A stretch of 41,404 bases of DNA from a virus, in IMG/VR virus record IMGVR_UViG_3300032770_000047, positions 1 to 41,404 of that record; one strand, 5' to 3'. The notes under the pieces were generated by a model. That model worked only from the letters and a program-made list of their open reading frames with translations, was not told the DNA's origin and did no database searches. Shown in pieces: positions 36,869 through 37,861 of the stretch (within the stretch, counting starts at the first letter, position 1; each line of letters opens with the position of its first letter). The position numbers and the translations under genes were made by a program.

Positions 36869-37210
36869 ATGAACGACAAGATTTTAACAAAGTTGCTGGA
36901 ACTTGCTGTGCAAGACAGCTCAAAAACCAGCGATGAATGTGCTTTTGAAGTCGGAGAGAGTTATTTTATCAGGACAGTAAGTTACTTTTTTGTTGGCACT
37001 GTGGATAACATTAAAGGCGGCTTTCTAATTATGAAAGATGTATCCTGCGTGTTCGACACCGGCCGTTATTCCGATAGCGTAAAAGATGGAAAGCTGGAAG
37101 AATTATCTTCCAGTGAAATTGAACCATTACCAAATGGGACAGGCGTGGCTATCGAATCTATAACCGATTTTAGTCCTTGGGCATACAAATTACCCAAGAA
37201 ACAAAAATAA
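36869..37210 (+). CDS. Unknown protein partnered with Ser-repeat gene
   Basis: 113 residues. YFIRTVSYFFVGTVDNIKGG, FLIMKDVSCVFDTGRYSD and FSPWAYKLPKKQ form an SH3- or LSm-like beta pattern. I recall similar short proteins (IRTVT...G.V......L.LEDASWVADTGR) next to Gly/Ser/Tyr dipeptide-repeat genes in other phage genomes, but cannot verify this here. The repeat gene follows by nine bases with its own AAGGAG, so the two are likely made together. Confidence 0.6.
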   Translation: MNDKILTKLLELAVQDSSKTSDECAFEVGESYFIRTVSYFFVGTVDNIKGGFLIMKDVSCVFDTGRYSDSVKDGKLEELSSSEIEPLPNGTGVAIESITDFSPWAYKLPKKQK

Positions 37211-37219
37211 GGAGATAAA

Positions 37220-37447
37220 ATGAACCTCTTTACTCAAAAAAATTATATCAGGAGCGGGAGCGGGAGCTGGAGCGGGAGCGGGAGCTGGAGCTGGAGCGGG
37301 AGCGGGAGCTGGAGCTGGAGCGGGAGCGGGAGCGGGAGCTGGAGCGGGAGCGGGAGCTGGAGCGGGAGCGGGAGCGGGAGCAGGAGCAGGAGCTGGAGCG
37401 GGAGCAGGAGCAGGAGCTGGAGCGGGAGCTGGAGCTGGATTTATTAA
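37220..37447 (+). CDS. Ser-(Gly/Trp/Arg) dipeptide-repeat protein
   Basis: 75 residues: leader MNLFTQKNYIR, then 31 perfect Ser-X dipeptides, then IY. X is Gly 16 times, Trp 11, Arg 4. AAGGAG lies seven bases before the ATG, so translation is likely. Every repeat is AGC-NGG with N = G, T or A, never C, so only one base varies per unit. Trp at nearly every third or fourth dipeptide could make an amphipathic, membrane-active or aggregating ribbon. Function unknown. Confidence 0.7.
   Translation: MNLFTQKNYIRSGSGSWSGSGSWSWSGSGSWSWSGSGSGSWSGSGSWSGSGSGSRSRSWSGSRSRSWSGSWSWIY
37253..37438 (+). repeat. 31 tandem AGCNGG hexamers
   Basis: 186 bases without a single departure from AGCNGG. Only the fourth base varies: G in 16 units, T in 11, A in 4. 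Repeated GGG runs three bases apart (for example near 37322-37340) could form G-quadruplexes. Copy number changes would preserve the reading frame. Confidence 0.9.
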
Positions 37448-37477
37448 TTTATTCCCTTAACCCTTTAATTGTTTAAG

Positions 37478-37635
37478 GCGAGGCGGTGTGAAATACAGAA
37501 CTCCTGCCTTATATGGATAGCAGCAAAGCGCAGGGTAGTAAGCTAATTATATGCTTCATATTTTTAGCCGAAGTATCCCCGATGAATTTTCTGAGGGAAG
37601 GACTGCTATGTGCCAATCCATCGCCTCACATTAGC
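37478..37635. ncRNA. Structured element 1 of a tandem pair
   Basis: Stem GCGAGGCGGTG (37478-37488) with CATCGCCTCAC (37619-37629), one mismatch and one G-U. Inner helices CCTGC/GCAGG and ATAGCAG/CTGCTAT interleave. GCTAAT (37542-37547) can pair with ATTAGC (37630-37635) just outside the stem. Ends match element 2 (GTTTAARGCGAGRCGGTG ... CGCCTCACWTTAGCCC, each side separately). Strand uncertain. Confidence 0.4.
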
Positions 37636-37652
37636 CCATTAGAATAATAGTT

Positions 37653-37756
37653 TAAAGCGAGACGGTGGTGCCGAAAAAATCGCAGCAGATAACTGGCCTC
37701 TACTGCTAAGAATAGCCAGAAGACCACCGCCTCACTTTAGCCCGTTATTGGCTATT
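37653..37756. ncRNA. Structured element 2 of a tandem pair
   Basis: Stem TAAAGCGAGACGGTGGT (37653-37669) with ACCACCGCCTCACTTTA (37723-37739): 15 of 17 Watson-Crick pairs. The two exceptions are G-U wobbles if transcribed from the minus strand but mismatches from the plus strand. Loop: AGCAG/CTGCT (37684-37688, 37703-37707) interleaves with CTGGC/GCCAG (37693-37697, 37715-37719). Alternatively AATAGCC (37711-37717) pairs with GGCTATT (37750-37756) beyond the stem. Confidence 0.45.
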
Positions 37757-37782
37757 GCACCGAGTTTAATGAAGAAATTAAA

Positions 37783-37812
37783 ACTAGCCGTGGATAGGGA
37801 GCCACGGCTAGT
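37783..37812 (-). terminator. Rho-independent-type terminator of minus-strand cassette
   Basis: ACTAGCCGTGG (37783-37793) and CCACGGCTAGT (37802-37812), 11 perfect pairs around an 8-base loop. On the minus strand the hairpin is followed by TTTTAATTT, fitting a terminator for the zinc-ribbon genes at 37862-38425. Confidence 0.65.
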
Positions 37813-37861
37813 CAAGTGGCGTGGGGGTGCTACGCCGGAGCAAGTGAGGATAGGATAGCGG

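Follow-up and report, generated by a model that had tools for sequence, protein, structure and literature searches.

The run of AGCNGG hexamers in the window, by which we mean the whole 41,404-nt stretch of viral DNA analysed here (IMG/VR record IMGVR_UViG_3300032770_000047), belongs to a real, paired, protein-coding and fast-evolving module, the function of which is not established. Its downstream gene encodes a protein in which Ser alternates with Gly, Trp or Arg, and the upstream partner encodes a small acidic protein with a predicted LSm-like fold. Relatives of the latter are present at more than 500 viral loci and, in the loci that we read, lie nearly always beside a Ser-[Arg/Trp/Gly] protein. 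The components of the module in the window are as follows:

36869-37210, plus strand: upstream partner gene (family A), 113 aa, net charge -5 (acidic), predicted small beta-rich domain
37210-37214, plus strand: Shine-Dalgarno-like AGGAG, read from the sequence; it overlaps the stop codon of the partner and ends five bases short of the ATG
37220-37447, plus strand: Ser-X repeat gene, a 75-codon ORF with an ATG start (75 aa), net charge +6 (basic)
37220-37252, plus strand: leader MNLFTQKNYIR, 11 residues; leaders of similar length precede the arrays in relatives
37253-37438, plus strand: 31 perfect AGCNGG units, or (Ser-[Gly/Trp/Arg])31, uninterrupted

The repeat gene starts 9 nt past the stop codon of its partner, and the array is followed by two more codons and a stop. 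The variable bases of consecutive units read GGTGGTTGGTTGGGTGGTGGGAATGAATGTT, comprising 16 G, 11 T, 4 A and no C. The preliminary description, made without any comparison, had reported 31 units with one variable base that is never C, preceded by a ribosome site and a start codon, and all of this holds in the window. The array is not a chance occurrence, as it scores 273 (period 6) and 315 (period 24) in Tandem Repeats Finder, while no other array in the window scores above 60. Rfam gave no match at the repeat site.

Relatives of the array and its association with the upstream gene

A search of viral contigs for runs of six AGCNGG units yielded 119 stretches; ordinary low-complexity sequence accounted for many of these, and a subset combined mixed bases at N with a Ser-X ORF possessing a start codon and a Gly-Ala frame without one. 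The ORFs immediately upstream of the arrays in this subset formed two sets, family A, which includes the upstream gene of the window, and family B. Profile searches of viral contigs returned 385 relatives of family A and 121 of family B, and the family A profile also matched 12 bacterial or archaeal MAG contigs. The best 80 of the 385 and the best 80 of the 121 loci from viral contigs were read. An ORF consisting of a leader and a (Ser-X)n array adjoins the upstream gene in 142 of the 173 loci read, window included, representing 135 distinct arrays. For family A, such an ORF adjoins 70 of 93 genes, again with the window included; four of the 23 loci lacking it are contig ends, and ten more contain Ser-X sequence elsewhere. 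For family B, it adjoins 72 of the 75 untruncated genes. In a control comprising 614 kb of related phage loci, only 4 of 6376 ORFs reached the same score, and none was of the W/R/G kind. These proportions apply to the present set only and not to all phages, the sampling having been anchored on relatives of array-bearing loci.

In 44 arrays the start codon of the repeat gene overlaps the stop codon of its partner by 4 nt, and in 15 the overlap is 1 nt; in most other arrays the start codon lies within about a dozen bases of that stop; no case of the two genes being fused in one ORF was found. At the sequence level, the two-gene pairing is established. The preliminary description had suspected a two-gene system with an upstream “IRTV...DTGR” gene, and had considered the idea refutable if that gene were not conserved; the suspicion held in both families, and the idea was not refuted, as the pairing is kept in most loci. 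The relatives could be reached only with a profile derived from array-anchored loci. As the sole query, the window partner was insufficient, finding nothing in viral contigs or plasmids and giving a single weak phage match. Similarly, a search for the AGCNGG pattern in 24 related phage records found no array, missing the array-bearing relative because its units use AGT.

The selected reading frame and the turnover of the arrays

The single variable base cannot by itself identify the frame under selection, because two other frames are equally invariant in the window: shifted by one base, the array reads GGA-GCN, an unvarying (Gly-Ala)n with N at a silent wobble position, and on the reverse strand it reads (Pro-Ala)n, with N again in the wobble. 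From the window alone the Gly-Ala frame seemed the better explanation; it was then tested by comparison between arrays and rejected. Among the 135 distinct arrays, none has a stop in the Ser-X frame, while stops occur in frame +1 in 13 and in frame +2 in 57. The main Ser codon is AGC in 24 arrays, AGT in 4, TCA in 12, TCG in 49 and TCT in 46, with the dominant codon accounting on average for 96% of Ser codons within an array, and a switch between AGY and TCN requires two changes. Because the Ser codon differs between arrays, the dipeptide encoded in the alternate frame differs between phages, being Gly-Ala, Gly-Val, Gly-Leu or Gly-Arg, and only the Ser-X reading is constant. Genome G015, the terminase of which is related to that of the window phage, has a (AGTNGG)n array with Gly-Val in the alternate frame, yet still encodes Ser-[Gly/Arg/Trp]; locus L316 maintains the same alternation with Tyr TAC, Arg CGC and Gly GGC; and at L268 Thr is mixed in for Ser. 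Trp, Arg and Gly are found together in 125 of the 135 arrays.

Since the Ser-X frame remains constant and free of stops while the alternate frames change, it is under selection at the protein level, and the repeat is a real gene. The preliminary description had proposed, as one of two possibilities, selection on a protein with Ser at every second residue, accompanied by Trp, Arg and Gly, and had named random stops or frameshifts as grounds for refutation; the former held, and the latter, when checked, did not materialize. A Gly-Ala (or Gly-Val, Gly-Leu) coding frame is all but excluded: in its favour, N in the window is the wobble base of Ala, as expected for silent variation, but this frame has no start codon in the window, is interrupted by stops in the 13 arrays mentioned and changes its dipeptide among phages, while Ser-X is constant and has both a start codon and a leader. 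A non-coding satellite, which would keep neither the frame nor the partner gene, is excluded to the same degree.

Selection on the protein does not account for all of the constraint. The X codons are nearly all NGG: Gly is encoded by GGG in 96% of array codons, compared with 20% in background ORFs, and Arg by AGG or CGG in 98%, compared with 30%, which is a tighter restriction on codons than selection on the protein would produce by itself. The Arg codon is exclusively AGG or exclusively CGG in 107 of 116 arrays, so that the absence of C at N, noted in the window, is not a general rule across related arrays. Arrays with AGG lie in AT-richer loci (median GC 0.417) and those with CGG in GC-richer ones (0.511; p = 6e-6). 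Random hypermutation at N, which corresponds to the mutation process acting on one base proposed earlier, is disfavoured by the mutual exclusion of A and C and by the way the codon set follows GC content. Duplication and reshuffling of a few founder units, combined with selection for three residue types, fits better. Also not borne out was Asp as a regular residue at X, and Tyr is dominant in one array only (L316).

The order of units is near random and slightly anti-clustered (lag 1 z -2.5), and significant block repeats occur in 16 of the 63 longer arrays; on these grounds simple single-unit slippage was rejected. Partner genes identical over their last 225 bases may be followed by arrays differing by whole units (e.g. 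L315 and L318). The arrays permit a direct test of how a low-complexity protein retains its composition during sequence turnover, which is feasible because switches between Ser codon families and gains or losses of units can be counted. The variation is not that of a diversity-generating retroelement target, in which template adenines change to any base and a reverse transcriptase is encoded close by: N has only three states with A and C mutually exclusive, and no reverse transcriptase was present among 25 of the 74 neighbour families.

In as many as 31 loci, at least two Ser-X-like ORFs share a strand. Inspection of 16 of them revealed one second ORF that is an unrelated Ser-Asp stretch (L306); tandem copies have the leader, and often the C-terminus, in common, and differ in the array. 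Several arrangements are worth mentioning as separate observations. Positions 1029-2895 of L268 contain two tandem groups that together comprise five Ser-X genes; these have a common MNAxxxRxGF-like leader, and some of the copies are strongly degenerate, with Thr for Ser. L356 (G015:36000-40866) and L357 contain a tandem module at a contig end, in the order partner C-terminus, array, partner, array. On the reverse strand of L044, near position 1678, an array in a Glu-X frame comes right after an apparent family B N-terminus (MKKVVTVTEVEGEGFE), as if a deletion had joined the N-terminus of the partner to the array.

The partner protein, its predicted fold and its distribution

When their profiles are compared, family A proves homologous to family B (hhalign probability 94%, E 8.6e-8). 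The model of a family B member (pLDDT 94.1) found only Sm/LSm structures among its top 50 Foldseek matches in PDB (50/50, best E 8.5e-4, probability 1.00), with TM up to 0.79 by target and an rmsd as low as 1.4 angstrom across some 72 residues. The model of the window partner, from family A (pLDDT 87.6), also matched mostly Sm/LSm folds in PDB, and only weakly (best E 0.086, none below 1e-3). An Sm/LSm-like fold, a small and strongly bent barrel of five strands, is a prediction from single-chain models, better supported for the family B member than for the protein of the window. The likeness to the Sm/LSm/Hfq superfamily extends to size and to part of the Sm1 motif (G.L...D..MN..L.[DE]). Judging the consensus by eye, its G and L are kept, Asp is replaced by Asn in family B, the Asn is not kept, and the turn between beta2 and beta3 is one residue shorter. 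Unlike the superfamily, both families lack the Sm2 motif ([IV]RG), the corresponding place, again by eye, reading IESFG in the consensus of family B and SI.D in that of family A; there is no significant sequence match in PDB; and the mate is a separate repeat gene. Canonical Sm-type RNA binding is thus unsupported, and we do not call the protein a canonical Sm protein, given the absence of the Sm2 Arg-Gly and an Sm1 motif kept only in part.

Two further similarities were noted. The MM0924 family (NF041655) was matched weakly by 37 of 50 family B members (best E 3.3e-5), but a member scoring 21.9 bits against the curated cutoff of 45 does not qualify for that family. DUF6948 phage proteins were among the best viral fold matches (E 0.017-0.067); this similarity is at the level of the fold and not significant, no paper on it was found, and the link was rejected.

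The two products carry opposite charges, as their sequences show directly: the partner is acidic in 89% of family A and 99% of family B (median pI about 5), and the repeat protein is basic in 100% and 99%, respectively (median pI 12 and a net charge averaging about +10). Arg takes the place of Lys, the ratio of the two being 748:44 in the repeat proteins of family A. The charges of the two do not covary across loci. Leaders are mostly hydrophobic or neutral in family A and Lys/Arg-rich in family B; such family-specific leaders would fit a matched partner, which is no more than a possibility, as they may reflect descent only.

Family A is present in two of 25 related phage records (window included; many are fragments) and family B in none, and the module is accessory and sometimes duplicated. 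Among 50,697 phage records each family has a single relative, and both come from Manatee Spring (spring metagenome): in MW202573 both genes are annotated as hypothetical proteins, and in MW202825 both the partner and the adjoining ORF are unannotated. The module is almost absent from sequenced isolate phages, and its hundreds of relatives belong to uncultured ones. There is no fixed gene neighbourhood, and the neighbours are diverse; DNA methyltransferases, RecT/Erf annealing proteins and YopX-type proteins recur among them, which suggests early regions. Neither gene is represented in the family databases scanned, with no match in Pfam, PHROGs or NCBIfam (the last for family B only) at curated or usual thresholds, and no description of the pair was found in the open-access literature that was word-searched, preprints not included. 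Any claim of novelty is limited by the limits of these searches.

Possible functions of the pair

The best reading of the module, which in our judgement falls a little short of probable and rests on an inferred mechanism, is that of an LSm-fold adaptor acting with a fast-changing, disordered, multivalent Arg/Trp polymer that would bind nucleic acid and may condense it. The first gene supplies the small acidic protein of predicted Sm/LSm-like fold, and the second is probably translationally coupled to it, because the two often overlap. The product of the second gene consists of a short leader and a long basic low-complexity chain. Every second residue of this chain is Ser, and the others are Arg, Gly or an aromatic residue, which is Trp and only rarely Tyr; inferring from composition only, the chain may be disordered and behave as a “sticker and spacer” polymer. 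Its Arg and aromatic residues would bind nucleic acid, most likely RNA, and could condense it; the LSm-fold protein, by analogy with EDC3 and LSM14, may bind the chain, perhaps via the leader, and control its activity or target. Whole units are gained, lost and reshuffled, and in this way the repeat rapidly alters its length and order, with composition held. Disorder, nucleic-acid binding, condensation and direct binding between the two proteins are all inferred, without experiment. Counting against this reading are the weak Sm matches of the window partner, the incomplete Sm motifs, the excess of NGG codons and the lack of charge covariation noted above.

The analogy draws on divergent LSm domains found in the P-body scaffolds EDC3, LSM14 and Trailer hitch, which appear among the fold matches of the partner. 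In EDC3 and LSM14 the domain recognises short motifs of disordered proteins. Unlike the phage protein, these scaffolds are eukaryotic and multi-domain, and for the phage protein nothing in the present data points to a role in RNA decay or to binding. The repeat protein resembles SR, RGG and FUS-type low-complexity proteins in its Ser/Arg dipeptides and in having Arg and aromatics spaced by Ser and Gly; it differs in its strict period-2 alternation, in the use of Trp rather than Tyr, in being nearly all repeat and in its phage context, and common descent is not claimed. Low-complexity proteins in phages are themselves known from a survey of such regions in prokaryotes and phages (PMC6821194). 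A bolder version, possible but less likely than not, is a dedicated condensate of uncultured phages or RNP system analogous to eukaryotic LSm and SR/FUS-like proteins, in which the adaptor and the Ser-Arg/Trp/Gly polymer might remodel RNA or host functions during infection. If the condensate or RNP reading is true, phages would have their own version of an arrangement familiar from eukaryotic RNA bodies; should the function instead be toxic or translational, a widespread unannotated module would still have been explained.

Among the rivals, an effector-antidote pair remains possible. The basic Arg/Trp chain would be toxic, either membrane-active or jamming nucleic acids, with the host or rival phages as its target, and the acidic partner, made just ahead of it, would neutralise or chaperone it. 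The layout, with a small acidic gene first and a basic one second, overlapping by 4 nt in the 44 arrays noted above, is the usual one of toxin-antitoxin modules, and the module is accessory, duplicated and fast-changing, like arms-race genes. Antimicrobial peptides built of Arg/Trp repeats are known. Against this, neither a signal peptide nor a membrane-spanning segment is obvious to the eye in the repeat protein, its amphipathicity is diluted by Ser and Gly, and toxicity is only hypothesised, with no data behind it.

A translation device is unlikely. Under this hypothesis the run of NGG codons (AGG, CGG, TGG, GGG), and not the peptide, would matter, causing ribosome stalling or peptidyl-tRNA drop-off and, as a result, tRNA drain or operon regulation. 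The NGG excess for Gly and Arg over background speaks for it, and NGG codons near the 5′ end are reported to be suppressive via peptidyl-tRNA drop-off (PMC12204400). However, the published effect is seen at the very start of a gene, and the arrays begin at about codon 10-15; L316 keeps aromatic, Arg and Gly residues with TAC, CGC and GGC; GGA and AGA occur in L338 and L268; Ser persists across both of its codon families; and leaders are conserved between paralogues.

Other features of the window may be recorded for completeness. A run of seven A at 37236-37242 lies shortly before the array, and loss of one A would bring the ATG into the Gly-Ala frame. On the 3′ side of the repeat gene, a 97-nt stretch at 37652-37748 has a folding z of -3.6, with none of 200 shuffles as good; the stretch at 37468-37645, which has a GCGAGRCGGTG start and a similar end in common with it, folds barely better than its shuffles (z -1.05), and neither had a match in Rfam. 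A 12-pair hairpin with a T-rich tail at 37782-37813, terminator-like on the minus strand, lies between convergent gene blocks. Elsewhere, the phage genome encodes an SPFH/Band 7 protein (28043-28834, E 5e-36), and a tRNA-Met gene is located at 29744-29818, close to a switch in gene direction.
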